From: Amphritea japonica ATCC BAA-1530 | GTDB lineage: Bacteria; Pseudomonadota; Gammaproteobacteria; Pseudomonadales; Balneatricaceae | NCBI RefSeq assembly: GCF_016592435.1 | Contig: NZ_AP014545.1 | Span: 1,054,001 to 1,118,000 of the forward strand | Direction: 5' to 3' | DNA length: 64,000 bases | In this document: positions 37,826 through 51,965 of the stretch, in pieces | Layout of the letters: each line of letters begins with the position of its first letter | How positions within the stretch are numbered: the stretch's first letter is position 1 | The notes under the pieces: generated by a model | Databases searched by the model: none | What the model was told of the DNA's origin: nothing | Seen by the model: only the letters and a program-made list of their open reading frames with translations | Program-made: the position numbers and the translations under genes

Positions 37826-38520
37826 GAACGCACAATACTGCCTTCGTACGCTGGCTCTATATGGCTCGAACCACATCGGCGGTTCTCACCCACCTCCGCC
37901 CATAAATCGCAGGCACAAAAAAGCCCCGTTGTATAACGAGGCTGTTTCGTATCGAATTCGATGGTGGGAGGTGGATTATTCCCCTTCGGGCTGTTGCGAA
38001 AAAAGCGTCGCAACGTTGTCTCCATTCGCAGGCTCATTCCGGCTCGAACCACATCAGTGGTTCTCCTCCACCTCCACTCATAAATCGCAGGCACAAAAAA
38101 GCCCCGTTGTTTAACGAGGCTATTTCGTATCGAATTCGATGGTGGTGGGAGGTGGATTATTCCCCTTCGGGCCGTTGCGAGAGAAGCATCGCAACGTTGT
38201 CTTCGTTCGCAGGCTCACTTCGGCTCGAACCACATCGGCGGTTCTCACCCACCTCCGCCCATAAATCGCAGACACAAAAAAGCCCCGTTGTATAACGGGG
38301 CTGTTTCGTATCGAATTCGATGGTGGTGGGAGGTGGATTATTCCCCTTCGGGCTGTTGCGAAAAAAGCGTCGCAACGTTGTCTCCATTCGCAGGCTCATT
38401 CCGGCTCGAACCACATCGATGGTTCTCCTCCACCTCCACTCATAAATCGCAGGCACAAAAAAGCCCCGTTGTTTAACGAGGCTATTTCGTATCGAATTCG
38501 ATGGTGGTGGGAGGTGGATT
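37826..38520 (-). repeat. tRNA-Tyr-linked tandem repeat array (rtT-like), three full units plus one partial
   Basis: Reading away from the tRNA gene, units occupy 38520-38340, 38339-38159 and 38158-37978 (181 bp each), then a partial fourth from 37977 to about 37826. Each unit starts with a copy of the last 19 nt of tRNA-Tyr (AATCCACCTCCCACCACCA on the minus strand). The first is the real tRNA end; copies are at 38321-38339, 38140-38158 and 37962-37977, the last shortened to 16 nt. Each unit then has the palindrome ATCGAATTCGAT, a hairpin with U6 tail, and a covarying GGCGG/CCGCC-type stem. Units alternate in sequence variant (B-A-B-A). E. coli tyrT has an array of about 178-bp units of the same design. 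Apparent ORFs within the array are judged spurious. Confidence 0.93.
38457..38483 (-). terminator. Intrinsic terminator after tRNA-Tyr (first repeat unit)
   Basis: Minus strand: AGCCTCGTT AAAC AACGGGGCT followed by six T. Near-identical hairpins recur in every repeat unit (around 38276-38302, 38096-38122 and 37916-37942). This one would end the tRNA-Tyr transcript unless read through. Confidence 0.85.
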
Positions 38521-38585
38521 CGAACCACCGAAGCTCGCGCGTCAGATTTACAGTCTGATCCCTTTGGCCACTCGGGAACCCCACC
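38502..38585 (-). tRNA. tyrT: tRNA-Tyr (anticodon GTA)
   Basis: 84 nt with encoded CCA. The acceptor stem is GGTGGGG/CCTCCCACC. The D-arm is CCCGAGTGGCCAAAGGG. The anticodon loop is CTGTAAATC (GTA), flanked by the AGACTGTAAATCT stem-loop as in E. coli tRNA-Tyr. It has a long variable arm, a class II feature of tyrosine tRNA, and the T-arm is GGTGGTTCGAATCCACC. The name follows the amino acid; the locus may not be orthologous to E. coli tyrT. The 3' end lies in the repeat array. Confidence 0.97.
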
Positions 38586-39027: not shown

Positions 39028-41292
39028 ATGCAGGACATATTGGTAACGAAACGGGATGGTCGTCAGGAAACACTGGACCTGGAGAAAATTCACCGAGTAG
39101 TTATCTGGGCCGCCCACGGTCTTCAGAATGTCTCAGTTTCTCAAGTGGAGCTGAAAGCACATATACAGTTCTACGATGGTATTAAAACCGCAGATATACA
39201 TGAAACACTGATTAAGTCAGCGGCAGACCTTATCTCTGAAGATGCGCCAGATTATCAATATCTGGCCGCTCGCCTTGCTATATTTCACTTGCGTAAGCGC
39301 GCTTTTGATAGCTTTGAGCCTCCCCATCTGATGACCCACGTAGCGCAGATGGTTGATGCAGGCCGGTATGATAAGCACCTGCTGGAAGATTACAGCGAAG
39401 CTGAGTTCAATCAGTTGAATGAGTACCTGGATCATAGTCGGGACATGAATTTCAGCTACGTTGCTGTAAAACAGCTAGAAGGGAAGTACCTGGTCCAGAA
39501 CCGGGTCACCAACGAAATTTTTGAAAGCCCGCAGATCCTATATATGCTGGTATCTGCCTGCTTGTTTGCCAACTATCCAGAAGAGAGCCGCTTAGAATAT
39601 GTGAAGCGTTTCTATGACGCTTGCTCTCTGTTTAAGCTATCGCTGCCTACGCCCATTATGGCCGGCGTACGAACGCCGACACGTCAGTTTAGCTCCTGTG
39701 TGCTGATTGAATCCGGAGATTCTCTGGACTCAATTAATGCGACAGCCAGTGCCATTGTTAAGTATGTTAGCCAGCGTGCGGGTATCGGTATCAATGCTGG
39801 TCGTATTCGCGCCCTGGGTAGCCCTATTCGCGGCGGAGAAGCATTTCATACTGGTTGTATTCCGTTCTACAAATATTTCCAGACAGCGGTGAAGTCTTGC
39901 TCGCAAGGGGGCGTGCGTGGTGGTGCCGCAACGCTGTTTTATCCTCTTTGGCATCTGGAAGTTGAATCACTGCTTGTATTAAAGAATAACCGGGGTGTTG
40001 AAGAAAACCGTGTGCGTCATCTGGATTATGGTGTGCAGCTGAATAAACTGATGTATACCCGGTTGATTAAAGGCGGAGATATTACCCTGTTCAGCCCGCA
40101 TGAGGTTCCAGGGTTATATGACGCTTTCTTTGCTGATCAGGATGAGTTTGAACGTCTTTATGTGAAGTATGAGCAGGATGACAGTATCCGTAAGAAGACA
40201 ATCAAAGCAGTCGAGCTGTTTGGTATTCTGGCTTCCGAACGTGCTTCTACGGGACGTATCTATATACAGAACGTTGATCACTGTAATACACACAGCCCGT
40301 TTGATCCTCAGGTTGCTCCGGTTAAACAATCTAATCTTTGTCTTGAGATTGCGCTGCCAACAAAGCCGATGAACGATATTAATGATGCTGAAGGTGAAAT
40401 TGCGTTGTGTACGCTGTCGGCATTTAATTTGGGCGCATTGGAAAACCTTGATGAGCTCGAGAATCTGTCTGATTTGATCGTGCGCGCACTAGATAGCTTG
40501 CTGGATTATCAGGATTACCCGATAGAAGCGGCCCGTACCGCTTCTATGAATCGTCGTACTCTTGGGGTAGGCGTGACAAACTTTGCTTATTATCTGGCTA
40601 AGAATGGCGTACGTTACTCCGACGGCTCAGCTAACGGCTTGGTTCATAAAACGTTTGAAGCGGTGCAGTATTACTTGCTAAAAGCGTCAAATCAGCTTGC
40701 TAAAGAGCAGGGGCCCTGTAAGTTATTTAATGAAACAAATTATGCAAAAGGTATCCTGCCGACCGATACTTACAAGCGTGAAATTGACGAGTTTTGTGAA
40801 GAGCCTTTGCACTACTTCTGGGAAACTTTGCGTGAAGATATTCGAGAGTTTGGTCTGCGGAACAGTACGCTAACAGCATTGATGCCATGCGAGACATCTT
40901 CTCAAATTACTAACTCGACTAACGGTATTGAGCCACCACGGGGATATGTTAGCGTTAAAGCCAGCAAAGACGGCGTAATGAAGCAGGTTGTTCCGGAATA
41001 TGCTGAATTGAAAGATGATTACGAGCTGTTATGGGATATTCCTACCAACGAAGGTTATCTGCAGCTGGTCGGTATTATGCAGAAGTTTGTTGACCAGTCG
41101 ATCTCTTCAAATACAAATTATGACCCATCTAAATTCCCGGGTGATAAAGTGCCCATGAAGCAGCTGCTAAAAGACCTGCTTACCGCTTATAAATATGGTG
41201 TTAAAACCCTCTATTACCATAACACTCGCGATGGAGCGACTGACCAGCATGATGACATGAGTGGTTGTGAAAGCGGTGCCTGTAAACTCTAA
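39028..41292 (+). CDS. nrdA: Class Ia ribonucleoside-diphosphate reductase, alpha subunit
   Basis: Reduces ribonucleoside diphosphates to deoxyribonucleotides for DNA synthesis. 754 aa, close to E. coli NrdA. The N-terminal ATP-cone (LVTKRDGRQETLDLEKIHRV) senses dATP. The active site has the redox pair cysteine in QFSSCVLIESGD and the radical relay Asn-x-Cys-x-Glu in SNLCLEIALP. The C-terminal shuttle cysteines end the chain (CESGACKL). It is followed by nrdB and a yfaE ferredoxin, and preceded by twin NrdR boxes. The 101 bp to nrdB contain no terminator. Confidence 0.98.
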   Translation: MQDILVTKRDGRQETLDLEKIHRVVIWAAHGLQNVSVSQVELKAHIQFYDGIKTADIHETLIKSAADLISEDAPDYQYLAARLAIFHLRKRAFDSFEPPHLMTHVAQMVDAGRYDKHLLEDYSEAEFNQLNEYLDHSRDMNFSYVAVKQLEGKYLVQNRVTNEIFESPQILYMLVSACLFANYPEESRLEYVKRFYDACSLFKLSLPTPIMAGVRTPTRQFSSCVLIESGDSLDSINATASAIVKYVSQRAGIGINAGRIRALGSPIRGGEAFHTGCIPFYKYFQTAVKSCSQGGVRGGAATLFYPLWHLEVESLLVLKNNRGVEENRVRHLDYGVQLNKLMYTRLIKGGDITLFSPHEVPGLYDAFFADQDEFERLYVKYEQDDSIRKKTIKAVELFGILASERASTGRIYIQNVDHCNTHSPFDPQVAPVKQSNLCLEIALPTKPMNDINDAEGEIALCTLSAFNLGALENLDELENLSDLIVRALDSLLDYQDYPIEAARTASMNRRTLGVGVTNFAYYLAKNGVRYSDGSANGLVHKTFEAVQYYLLKASNQLAKEQGPCKLFNETNYAKGILPTDTYKREIDEFCEEPLHYFWETLREDIREFGLRNSTLTALMPCETSSQITNSTNGIEPPRGYVSVKASKDGVMKQVVPEYAELKDDYELLWDIPTNEGYLQLVGIMQKFVDQSISSNTNYDPSKFPGDKVPMKQLLKDLLTAYKYGVKTLYYHNTRDGATDQHDDMSGCESGACKL

Positions 41293-41393
41293 TTGTGAGC
41301 AGCGAAGACTGTGTAAAGGATTTCAGGCCGGTGGGTGGCTACCGGTTATCAGTTTGTCCCTCCCTGTGTCCAGGGCAAGAGTATTGAAGCGAA

Positions 41394-42524
41394 ATGTTAT
41401 ATTCAACGTTTGATCCGACTTTTAATGATGCTACCAAAGAGCCGATGTTTTTTGGTCATAGCGTAAACGTAGCCCGTTATGATAAGCAGAAATACCCAAT
41501 CCTTGAAAAGCTGATAGAGAAGCAGCTTTCATTTTTCTGGCGCCCGGAAGAGGTTGACCTGTCAACCGATCGTAAAGATTTCATGGTGATGCCTGAGCAT
41601 GAAAAGCATATCTTTTTGAGCAATCTGAAATATCAGACATTGCTTGATTCTGTTCAGGGACGCTCACCAAACATTGCCTTTTTACCGGTGGTTTCTCTTC
41701 CAGAGTTGGAAACCTGGCTGGAAACCTGGGCATTTAGTGAGACGATTCATAGCCGCTCATATACTCATATCATTCGTAATATTCTGACTGAACCATCTGT
41801 CGTATTTGACGAAATTGTAACTAACGAAGAGATCGTTAAACGTGCCCGTAGTGTGACCCGGCTTTATGATGAGTTCATCGAGCTGGTGAATATCTATATG
41901 ATTCAAGGTGCAGGCGAACATACGGTTGATGGTAAAGCATACGATGTGAGTATGCATAATCTTAAAAAGAAACTGTATCTGACGCTTATGTCGGTTAACG
42001 TGCTGGAAGCTATTCGCTTCTACGTCAGCTTTGCCTGTTCGTTTGCCTTTGCTGAGCGGGCGATTATGGAGGGCAACGCTAAAATCATTAAGTTAATTGC
42101 CCGGGATGAAGCGCTGCATCTTACCGGGACTCAGTTTATGCTTAATATGCTGGCATCTGGTGCTGATGATCCTGACTTCAAAGAGATTGCTAAAGAGTGT
42201 GAGGCAGAGGTTTACGAAATTTTTCGTGAAGCAGCTGAGCAGGAGAAAGAGTGGGCAGAGTATCTGTTTAAAGATGGCTCTATGATCGGTTTGAATGCCC
42301 GAATTCTGTCCGACTATGTGGAATATATAACGAATGTACGGATGAAAGCGCTGAATCTGGAAGAGATTTTTCCGGCTCAACAGAATCCACTACCATGGAT
42401 GAATGCATGGCTGGTCAGCGACAACGTGCAGGTTGCACCACAGGAAGCCGAGATCAGTTCGTATCTGGTCGGTGCGATTGATAACGAAGTGGCAGATGAT
42501 GACTTCGACGATTTCGACCTCTGA
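41394..42524 (+). CDS. nrdB: Class Ia ribonucleoside-diphosphate reductase, beta subunit
   Basis: Provides the diiron-tyrosyl radical for NrdA. 376 aa. The radical Tyr lies in [14 protein letters not shown]. The iron ligands are supplied by helices around [32 protein letters not shown] and the C-terminal helix. The extreme C-terminus ([12 protein letters not shown]) is the acidic tail that docks to NrdA. Second gene of the nrdA-nrdB-yfaE operon. Confidence 0.97.
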
Positions 42525-42543
42525 GGACCCAAAGGAACAGGCC

Positions 42544-42810
42544 ATGTCTGGAATTCCAAGAATAAAGGTCAATCATTACAGTACGTTTTTTTACCAGTAT
42601 GAGTTCTCTCTACTGGATGCTCTTGAGGCGCAGGAGATCCCTGCGCCTTATAATTGCCGTGGTGGCTACTGTGGTTGTTGTCGGGTTCGCCTGATTGAAG
42701 GTGAGGTTGAAGAGGTTCAGGATGCGCTTTATGACACTGTGGGTGATGAAATACTGGCGTGCTGTATGAAACCGGTCTCTCATGTTGAAATAGAGATACC
42801 GGAAGACTAG
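42544..42810 (+). CDS. yfaE: 2Fe-2S ferredoxin for NrdB maintenance
   Basis: 88-aa plant-type ferredoxin; in E. coli the equivalent protein supplies electrons to repair the NrdB diiron-tyrosyl cofactor. The cluster cysteines follow C-x4-C-x2-C ... C: NCRGGYCGCCRVRL and ILACCMKPV. The ATG at 42544 has AAAGGAA eight bases upstream and is 20 bp after nrdB, so it is in the operon; a longer frame overlaps nrdB and is rejected. An intrinsic terminator follows. Confidence 0.95.
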   Translation: MSGIPRIKVNHYSTFFYQYEFSLLDALEAQEIPAPYNCRGGYCGCCRVRLIEGEVEEVQDALYDTVGDEILACCMKPVSHVEIEIPED

Positions 42811-48971: not shown

Positions 48972-51965
48972 TTATTCGGAAAAGCGTTCCAGTGTGGCAT
49001 TGAGTTGTTCAGCCTGTGCCCGGGCTGTTAGAAGCTCTTCTTCCAGTGAGTGCTTGCTCTCGTCTTCCGCTTTAGTCAGAGCGCGTTCTACTTTGGTGAC
49101 AGCTGCTCTGGCTAATGCCGCATCAATTTTAAGTTGCTTCAGATCAATTCCTTCTTGAGCTGCGGACTCGATCAGTACCTTTTCTGCTGAATCATAGGTT
49201 ACTTTAGCAGCATCATGGCGTTGCTGAAGCTGGTTTATTTCTGTCACCAATTCAGAAGCCAGGGGTGATTCTTTTTCATCATCAGATAGCTCTGCAAGCT
49301 GCTTTTCCGCTTTTTTCAGTTTAGTGCGCATGATAGATACTTGCTGCTTTAACGCCTTCATATCAACGGGACTGGTGCCGGATTCAGGTGCAGGTCTGGC
49401 GGATGCCAGTTCATCGCGCAGTGCTTTAAGTTTCTCTTTTAGCTTGTCGACACCGGCAGCCATTTTGTCGGCAGCGGGGCTATTGGACTCAACCGCTTTT
49501 TTCCAGGCGGTTTCGCCTTTATTGACCTTGGCTTGTAAGGAGGCGATATCCGCTTCCAATTCAGCGGTATCGATTGCTGCCGTAGCGCTAGTTTTGGTAG
49601 CGGTGTGTTTTGCAGCGCTTAGTTCATCTTGGAGTGCTTTAAGCTTATCTTTTAGCTTGTCGACACCAACCGCCATTTTATCGGCAGCGGGGCTGTTGGA
49701 CTCAACCGCTTTTTTCCAGGCGGCTTCGCCTTTATTGACCTTGGCTTGTAAGGAGGCGATATCCGCTTCCAATTCAGTGGTATCGATTGCTGTCGCAGCA
49801 CTTGTTTTGGTAGCGGTGTTTTTTGCAGCGCTTAGTTCATCTTGCAGTGCTTTAAGCTTATCTTTTAGCTTGTCGACACCAGCGGCCATTTTATCGGCAG
49901 CGGGGCTGTTGGACTCAACAGCTTTTTTCCAGGCAGTTTCGCCTTTGTCGATCTTGGCTTGCATCGCGCTGATATCAGCTTCAAGTTCGGTAGTATCAAC
50001 CGTAACCGCAGAGGGGGCGTTTGAGTCGCCAGATTCTGCGCTTTCGAAGGCCGCTGTTGCTTGGTTGGTACGCGCTTGTAGTTCTTCCACCTGAGCCTTG
50101 AGAGCGGTAACATCGCCTTCGCCAGTCGCTTCAGCATTCGCCAGTTGTTTTTCTGCTTTCTTTAGTTTTGTACGTGCAATGGCAGCGTTATTCTTCAGGT
50201 CTTTTAAGCTGATGCCAGGGGCACTGGCAAGCGCTGCTTCAGGTGTTTTGGCAGGAGCGCTCTGAGCCTGTTGATAAGCTTGTTCAGCCTGGTTTGATTT
50301 TTCTTGCAATTGTTGCACTGTAGCCTGAAGGGTTGCTACACCTTCTTGCTCTTTTTCCTGAGCATTAGCCAATGCTTTTTCTGCTTTTCTCAACTTTGTG
50401 CGGGCAATCGCTGCGTTACTTTTTAGTTGTTTCAGATCCGGTTCAGAGGATTCGGCATTAGCAGCTGTAGCGGGTTTGGGCATCAGTGCCGCATCTTTTT
50501 TCGCGGCCTGTGCTCTGGCAGCATCAGCGGCGCGCTGTTTGCGACGTTCTTCCTTCTCAATTTTTTCACGTTCAAGGCGTTCAAGACGAGCTTCAAAACG
50601 GATGCGCGCATGGTCAGCCTTACGTTGTTCAGCATCTTCTTTGCGAATTTCTGCCTTGGCGAAGCGGTAATACTGTACTAATGGAATGTTGCTGGGACAG
50701 ACATAGGAGCATGCGCCACACTCTATACAATCAAACAGATTGTGGTTGCGGGCTTTATCGAATTCACGACCTTTAGCAAACCAGTGCAGCTGCTGTGGCA
50801 GAAGTTCGACTGGGCAGACTTGCTCGCACATGCCGCACCGAATGCAGGCTTGCGCCGGTGGTTGTGCAGGCATTTCCTGAGCACTGCCGGCAATCAGGCA
50901 GTTGGTGGTTTTAATGACCGGTATCTGCTCATCTTCGACCGTGATGCCCATCATCGGTCCCCCAACGATCAAACGAGACATCTGCTCCCGGTCAACTTCC
51001 GAGTGGTCTAGAAGGTCAGTAAAACGGGTGCCTATTCTGACTTCGTAGTTCTGTTTATGGCCAGCGGCTTGTCCGGTCACGGTGACGATTCTGGATATCA
51101 GCGGCTCGCCATAAGTAACTGCTTTAAAGATAGCGGTAGTGGTGCCGATGTTCTGGCAGACGATACCTACATCTGCAGGGATCTTGCCACTGGGAACTTC
51201 AATGCCAGTGAGTAGTTTGATTAACTGTTTTTCACCACCGGATGGGTATTTGGTTGGGGTGATAACGATATCAAGATTCAGAGGGCTATTGTCTAAGGCC
51301 GTATGCAGGGCACGAATAGCCTGAGGTTTATTGTCCTCAATACCGACCATAATATGCAGAGGTTTGAGCAGATGGGCGATGATTTCAATCCCACCCAATA
51401 TCTGGTCAGCGCGCTCCCGCATCAACATATCATCGGCAGTGATATAAGGTTCGCACTCGGCCGCATTGATGATAAGAGTGTTAACGATATGATCATCACC
51501 CAGGTGGAGCTTTACATCGGTTGGAAAACCCGCGCCGCCCATTCCAGCGACCCCGGCCTGACGGATATACTCGATCAGTTCTGGCTTAGGTAGCTGGGTA
51601 TAGTCTTCCAGTCCCTGATGTTCGATCCACTCGTCCTGGCCATCCGCCTCGATAATCAGACAGTTGGCTGGCATGCCAGACATATGCGGTACCGGATGCG
51701 ATTCAATAGCTGTGACGATACCGGATGTGGATGCATGAATATTGGCGCTTATGCGACCGATCGCTTCGGCAACCAGCTGTCCTTTAAGAACACGCTCGCC
51801 TACCTTAACCACGGGATCTGCAGGCAAACCGATATGTTGTTGCAGTGGCAGCACGATTTGCGAGGGTATCGGCGCTAAAGTGATTGGCGCGCCGGTTGAT
51901 TGTTTTTTGTTCTCCGGTGGGTGTATGCCACCGTGGAAACTATGTACACGTACAGTATTCTTCAT
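48972..51965 (-). CDS. rnfC: Rnf/Rsx complex subunit C with very long coiled-coil tail
   Basis: NADH-oxidising, 4Fe-4S-containing cytosolic subunit. 997 aa. N-terminal half: [12 protein letters not shown] and SLBB-like parts, NADH/FMN domain ([26 protein letters not shown]) and two 4Fe-4S motifs, [12 protein letters not shown] and [12 protein letters not shown]. From about residue 440 the chain becomes an Ala/Lys/Glu/Gln-rich coiled coil with several repeats, including three tandem 71-aa units nearly identical in DNA (about 49410-50003). It ends without a further domain. RnfC from gammaproteobacteria often has such tails of varied length; this one is about 550 residues. It starts at [10 protein letters not shown], overlapping rnfB by 4 bp. 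Confidence 0.93.
49410..50003 (-). repeat. 213-bp in-frame tandem repeat within rnfC
   Basis: Three near-identical units begin at 49410, 49623 and 49836, each 213 bp (71 codons), encoding [34 protein letters not shown] and [20 protein letters not shown]-type segments. The high DNA identity suggests recent duplication; repeat number may vary between strains. Confidence 0.9.

Follow-up and report, generated by a model that had tools for sequence, protein, structure and literature searches.

Tandem tRNA-linked repeats behind tRNA-Tyr in Amphritea japonica and the possible descent of their core from a mobile hairpin module

Background

Behind a tRNA-Tyr gene of Amphritea japonica ATCC BAA-1530 lies a tandem array in which every unit begins with the end of the tRNA itself. 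The locus raises the questions of what these units are, how they arose and whether they serve the cell. The window, that is the whole stretch of DNA analysed, covers 64,000 nucleotides of contig NZ_AP014545.1 (positions 1,054,001 to 1,118,000). RNAs of this kind, the TLR or RtT RNAs, were first described in 1978. In E. coli K-12, TLRs are present at ten loci with one to five per locus. As in the window, their 18–19 nt 3' end equals that of the upstream tRNA or 5S gene, behind which they stand in a read-through position (Rudd 1999, as related in PMC8144298). The same paper assigns the E. coli TLRs "no known function", and the starvation or stringent-response role claimed for rtT in 1991 is rejected here also, having later been retracted (PMC8144298). 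A sequence-only reading of the window had seen in the array a possible untested small RNA. This description is too narrow: the E. coli counterpart, RttR, is annotated, and it is its reported role that has been withdrawn.

Layout of the array

Behind tRNA-Tyr, within positions 37826–38520, the minus strand carries three complete units, each 181 nt long, and a partial one that is alignable over 139 nt (both strands were checked; Table 1). The interval is the one given by the sequence-only reading. Its further claim, that each unit starts with the last 19 nt of the tRNA and that the first such copy is the tRNA itself, holds as well. The tail copies start at 38520 (the tRNA itself), 38339, 38158 and 37977, the latter three matching at 19/19, 19/19 and 17/19. 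No site beyond these four reaches 15/19 against the tail on either strand of the 64-kb window. An intrinsic-terminator-like hairpin, near-identical from copy to copy, stands behind every tail on the minus strand, and promoter-like sites in the region are at chance level (2 found against 2.7 expected). The units are ordered A-B-A-B, the first being matched best by the third and the second by the partial fourth (Table 1), with the remaining pairs at 163/181 or 122/139. This suggests that a two-unit block was duplicated, and the array has probably grown in this way.

Judged from its sequence, the array is a tRNA-linked repeat (TLR; Rfam RF00391, "RtT") by Rfam match, tail, arm and position. One of the three complete units scores above the gathering score of 45, the array adjoins tRNA-Tyr on the same strand, the tail is identical over 19 nt, and a helix between arm and tail (P1) is predicted in the folds of all three complete units (z in Table 1). 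The Rfam comparison agrees with the homology to E. coli tyrT/rtT that had been suggested, as does the design of the E. coli locus itself: in strain MG1655 the tail copies behind tyrV are spaced 178 nt apart. The E. coli tyrT/tyrV rtT (RttR; RF00391) and the window share tandem units of ~180 nt behind tRNA-Tyr that carry the last 19 nt of the tRNA, the arm-tail helix, a GAGAACC...GGUUCGA-type hairpin, and the P4 and P5 hairpins. The terminator-like hairpin after each tail distinguishes the window units from E. coli rtT. The window units are without a P6 hairpin.

Table 1. Features of the array at tRNA-Tyr, in window positions
Feature	Positions	Strand	Basis
tRNA-Tyr (GUA), CCA encoded, host gene of the array	38502..38585	-	ARAGORN; RF00005 52.4 bits
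Tail 0, tRNA-Tyr positions 58-76, first copy, within the tRNA	38502..38520	-	tail match
Unit 1, 181 nt: tail, terminator, 5' arm, P2 hairpin, core	38340..38520	-	repeat comparison
Unit 2, 181 nt; identity to unit 1 163/181	38159..38339	-	repeat comparison
Unit 3, 181 nt; identity to unit 1 179/181	37978..38158	-	repeat comparison
Partial unit 4, alignable over 139 nt; identity to unit 2 130/139; core broken off downstream	37839..37977	-	
Tail copy 1, 19/19	38321..38339	-	tail match
Tail copy 2, 19/19	38140..38158	-	tail match
Tail copy 3, 17/19 over the span, 3 nt missing	37959..37977	-	tail match
RtT (RF00391) match, 44.7 bits, slightly below gathering score 45	38321..38450	-	
RtT (RF00391) match, 53.2 bits, above gathering score 45	38140..38269	-	
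RtT (RF00391) match, 39.3 bits	37959..38088	-	
P1 5' arm, unit 1; pairs with tail copy 1 in predicted fold, z -2.34	38429..38442	-	
P1 5' arm, unit 2; pairs with tail copy 2 in centroid fold, z -2.26	38248..38261	-	
P1 5' arm, unit 3; pairs with tail copy 3 in predicted fold, z -4.07	38067..38081	-	
Terminator-like hairpin 3' of tRNA	38462..38483	-	
Terminator-like hairpin 3' of tail copy 1	38281..38302	-	
Terminator-like hairpin 3' of tail copy 2	38100..38121	-	
Terminator-like hairpin 3' of tail copy 3	37922..37943	-	

Occurrence and inheritance of the units

Matches to RF00391 are found at four tRNA loci of the A. japonica genome, those of Lys, Tyr, Val and Ser-GGA (E up to 1), and in 28 of the 57 genomes of the relatives sample, its own included (E 0.01). 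The occurrence in a marine gammaproteobacterium fits the genus Amphritea. The class sample has matches in 66 of 369 genomes (E 0.001), 24 of them above the gathering score, and TLR members are spread over several families of the Pseudomonadota. Loci were available for 178 of the 239 RtT matches listed, the other 61 being without one. A tRNA lies upstream on the same strand in 136 of these 178, and in 105 the tail matches the linked tRNA at 15/19 or better, the tRNAs being Ser, Tyr, Lys, Gln, Val, Arg, Pro and Glu. Two genomes (L367 and L371) have units linked to tmRNA, with a tmRNA-like tail and arm. The framing of the array as a speciality of tRNA-Tyr, or of E. coli tyrT, was therefore too narrow: linked units follow at least eight tRNA species and tmRNA in several Pseudomonadota families, whereas the list published for E. 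coli comprises ten loci from a single strain. In Actinobacillus, RtT members have been reported close to tRNAs for Asn and Lys (PMC4986893).

Outside the Pseudomonadota, two Chthoniobacterales MAG contigs (L210 and L226) carry RtT-like units behind tRNA-Glu and tRNA-Ser. In L226 two of the tails end in CCA though the tRNA gene does not encode it. Such a tail beside a CCA-less gene occurs at one of the two tRNAs on the two Verrucomicrobiota contigs; the 20 stretches from other genomes are uninformative on this point, as the linked tRNAs and tmRNAs shown encode CCA. In two relatives (L016 and L023) the array is preceded by no more of a tRNA-Ser gene than a 3' fragment, as it would be after insertion of an island into a tRNA.

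A search of the A. japonica genome that used the tRNA tails alone and no covariance model covered 68 tRNA genes in distinct contexts (identical contexts counted once; 71 tRNA matches listed), with one shuffle per tail. At a threshold of 15/19, tail copies were recovered behind the genes for Tyr, Lys, Val, Ser-GGA, two Phe, two Met that share a locus, a further Met, and Leu-CAA; over the same 68 contexts no shuffled tail exceeded 14/19. In the Phe units (L149 and L150) the core is inverted relative to the tRNA, the core-only matches being on the opposite strand. More of the tRNA is retained in the Met and Leu units, in which no core is recognisable. At one tRNA-Met (L144) the tail copies are spaced 91 nt apart. 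Four of these copies reach 17/19 or more, and each comes with a longer tRNA stretch and, again, no recognisable core. Tail duplication therefore also occurs without the module described below.

Within the genus Amphritea, the cores of units at the same isotype in other genomes are more alike (identity 0.64) than those at other isotypes in one genome (0.45). This indicates inheritance per tRNA locus, and on the core sequences the units of the genus are inherited in this manner. The nearest neighbour is of the same isotype for 26 of 36 units inside the genus and for 33 of 64 outside it, where the signal is weaker. Over all genomes there is no separation, mean identity being 0.430 within an isotype between genomes and 0.447 between isotypes within a genome. 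The idea that units jumped recently from one tRNA to another within the genus was considered and rejected, the cores clustering by isotype and not by genome. The presence of units on many tRNA species suggests that such units have probably formed on many occasions. The sequence-only reading had offered ancient conservation or repeated formation as alternatives. Both terms can be kept, but they are not exclusive, and inheritance per locus within the genus and the many tRNA species that carry units have to be added to them.

The arm and the tail

In its 5' arm a unit carries the tRNA 3' end (roughly positions 52–68) as the reverse complement, and the arm thus differs among tRNA species. In 99 of 105 units the arm prefers its own tail over the mean foreign tail. 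Of the 89 non-redundant linked units 60 were aligned, hand-chosen for clean arms and cores, a choice that favours structure. From this alignment RNAalifold recovers P1 unprompted, and 11 of the 13 P1 pairs change on both sides. Over the whole structure 85.0% of the cells are paired, against 73.2% when shuffled and 35.6–53.3% when slid, and the covariation score is 0.349 against 0.152. Two measures separate poorly. Pairs changed on both sides number 16 against 13.1 in shuffles (12 of 500 shuffles reach 16), and a version slid by one column has 18; the count of further pair types is 54 against 48.6 (7 of 500 shuffles). The outer three P1 pairs are unpaired in 32–34 of the 60 sequences, so that the helix mostly involves positions 59–68. 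Counts of G-U against A-C cells in P1, taken as a test of selection on the RNA, were 39 against 20, which shows little beside 60.3 against 41.1 in shuffled rows.

Because RF00391 itself contains P1, the preference test was redone on matches of a core-only covariance model, R1, which is without it. The own tail is preferred in 34 of 39 core-only T-loop matches and not in the other five. Among the 18 T-loop matches absent from the RF00391 lists, eight of which are from genomes not searched with RF00391, the own tail is preferred in 17 (own mean 8.0, foreign 5.8). In a Val unit (L018) the arm-tail pairing is kept although the tail has diverged from its tRNA. The idea that the arm is a leftover of the tRNA 5' half was rejected, a recognisable 5' body (score >40) being present in only 5 of 146 scored matches.

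The core as a hairpin module

R1 was built from 31 T-loop cores. It matches in 76 of 185 class genomes (E 0.001). At E 0.0001, the phylum sample yields matches in 63 of its 299 genomes. Genomes G178, G192, G671 and G683 are rich in the module. The module measures 67–83 nt and its ends are C...GAGTA-like. The loci studied were partly hand-picked from the R1 class list and otherwise taken roughly in list order, with places already covered being skipped. Contexts were classified for 95 of 112 R1 matches: 33 lie in a T loop with host tail, 4 show the T-loop motif only, 5 lie in a tRNA 5' half and 53 were called 'free' by script. Of these 53, about ten were judged T-loop-like by eye and several belong to the copies of a single larger repeat or site (the G178 family; L298, L315 and L330; L296, L311 and L316; L299 and L337), and no rate is claimed. 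Among the free matches with enough flank, GA precedes the module in 34 of 49 and CA in 6.

Taking the module out restores the tRNA: its removal from three tandem tRNA-Gln copies (L134) leaves 72/75 identity to the real gene, and removal of a D-loop module (L292) leaves an exact tRNA match over the 52 nt shown. One tRNA-Ser copy (L043) has modules in both its D loop and its T loop. In L291 and L314 the tRNA copy diverges shortly past the D loop. In L298 one module is nested in the first hairpin of another, and its removal restores a perfect stem, as judged by eye. Genome G192 has in-frame copies of the module within three ORFs that belong to two gene families, the open frames of 1321, 271 and 262 aa spanning both flanks. 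For one family the empty site is present in the same-genus genomes G427 and G428; the flanks are 91.8–100% identical, and G192 has 76 nt where these genomes have 1, with no target duplication. For the other family, a contiguous match in genome G117 is 45% identical. Comparison with Rfam, made for 17 loci at gathering scores and for 9 loci at E 0.5, placed no family on the module other than RtT at the L043 copy, which is hosted by a tRNA.

Together, these sequence comparisons give somewhat better than even odds to the idea that the TLR/RtT RNAs represent, in its tRNA-hosted form, a small mobile hairpin module of ~67–83 nt. The module would insert precisely, mostly behind GA and without target duplication, into T and D loops, tmRNA-linked copies, itself and, in frame, genes. 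The classic repeat would be a tRNA copy that bears such a T-loop insertion, had its own 5' half reduced to the tail-complementary arm and was later amplified in tandem, and the array in the window would be a diverged member.

Parallels for such behaviour exist. The Rickettsia palindromic elements are short palindromes that occur as in-frame insertions within genes and also within RNA genes. The free module is likened to them by behaviour, from description; they belong to an unrelated bacterial group, and the module is found mostly behind GA. Single-strand elements of the IS200/IS605 type have hairpin DNA and insert without target-site duplication, and the module resembles them in both respects, again by description and not by end sequences. 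A word search of the literature, with subscription journals mostly outside it, found no description of the free module. Sequence similar to rtT away from tRNA operons has been reported earlier in enterobacteria and assigned to BIMEs (PMC2965389), a likeness taken here from the description and not from the sequences; the passage available describes neither tRNA-loop nor in-frame gene insertion.

Three side observations concern the surroundings of module copies. In genome G178 seven dispersed copies of a larger repeat (L249 and L284–L289) carry an identical or near-identical module. In L301 a group II intron match (RF02005, 57.0 bits) is found roughly 110 nt away from a module. Copies of the tRNA 5' end upstream of the real gene were found for 14 of 172 tRNAs at 14/19 or better, against none with shuffled heads; they occur at L009, L017, L019, L117, L126, L046 and L108, and several resemble D-loop insertions of the module.

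The core in the window

The E. coli tyrT units match R1 at 56.7–58.4 bits, which shows that classic TLRs carry the module, and they keep its full core. The window units do not: they score 5.6 bits over one hairpin only, which is not a match. Elsewhere in the same genome the Lys unit scores 57.5 and the Val unit 31.8 bits, and the Phe and Ser units match too. Tyr units of relatives reach 20.0 and 15.4 bits, with nothing at E 0.1 for L083 and L077. By eye the window units read GGTTCGA / GCC...GAATA / ATCC, with the core in the expected place, a similar 3' end and a divergent 5' end; the last hairpin has been lost and the first changed. As the window units fail R1 and the E. coli tyrT units match it, a module origin of the window core is inferred through these intermediates.

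Origin and possible roles

The explanation that we consider likely is the following. A unit would be a reduced copy of the tRNA-Tyr 3' end, consisting of a strand of T stem and T loop, a core in the T loop at 57/58, and then positions 58–76. The arm complementary to the tRNA 3' end would let the RNA rebuild, with the tail, a helix like that of acceptor and T stem. Low-level transcription may come from read-through of the terminator behind tRNA-Tyr. Each tail may be trimmed as tRNA 3' ends are, which is suggested by E. coli MG1655, where the annotated RttR ends at 1287066, exactly on the A of the CCA of the next tail, in the copy 178 nt past the tyrV end. Copy number would shift through unequal recombination, and the core would be a diverged, partly decayed descendant of the mobile hairpin module that enters tRNA loops. 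The data require no cellular function, and a mild protein-titrating role of some members is possible.

Such titration is central to a different reading, in which the units form a trans-acting small RNA family tied to stable-RNA transcription, for example a growth-rate-linked CsrA titrator or an Hfq-bound sRNA. The compensatory structure of the 60-unit alignment is strong, and GGA is common in the hairpin loops of the module (P3-type 67/95 and P6-type 37/95, against about 10 and 7 in shuffles); both speak for this reading. According to PMC8144298, the E. coli RrA/B/F RNAs behind 5S are read-through transcripts that interact with CsrA and Hfq, but the effects of their deletion are modest and the 19 tRNA-linked E. 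coli TLRs score <0.01 as CsrA-type RNAs. The missing P6 hairpin of the window units and the patchy distribution over the class also speak against this reading, which is regarded as rather unlikely.

Less probable still, and disfavoured, is neutral tandem duplication of the tRNA 3' end with its terminator, free of RNA constraint and of any mobile module. Duplication of this kind agrees with the A-B-A-B order and with the Met and Leu tail arrays of the same genome that have no recognisable module, and a 175-bp VNTR at the Salmonella rtT RNA is reported in PMC2658671. It does not account for an arm that tracks the tail across tRNA species, nor for the common core and the compensatory changes. A further reading sees in the units scars of attachment sites, or decoys, for integrases that act on tRNA 3' ends. 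It is favoured by the tRNA-Ser 3' fragments before the L016 and L023 arrays, which are like the far end of an inserted element. However, these fragments include the T-stem 5' strand that is absent from RtT tails, and the arm, the core and the free copies are left unaccounted for. The 19-nt tail does resemble an integrase core. An origin of this kind is very improbable.

Taken alone, the array is one more TLR. Its relatives show features that are common beyond E. coli, namely the copy of the host tail, the co-changing arm, and a core that also exists alone. Should the core prove to be a mobile element with tRNA loops as its targets, the puzzle of 1978 would shift from a cellular role to the route of entry and the mobiliser.

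Surroundings of the array

No tail copy was found within 700 nt of the genome's other tRNA-Tyr gene (in L181), where the best site reaches 12/19. Divergent from the tRNA, at 39028–42810 of the window, lie ORFs that we take to encode ribonucleotide reductase subunits and a ferredoxin. A second tandem repeat is present in the window at 49408–49961, with a period of 213 nt, 2.6 copies and 92% matches.
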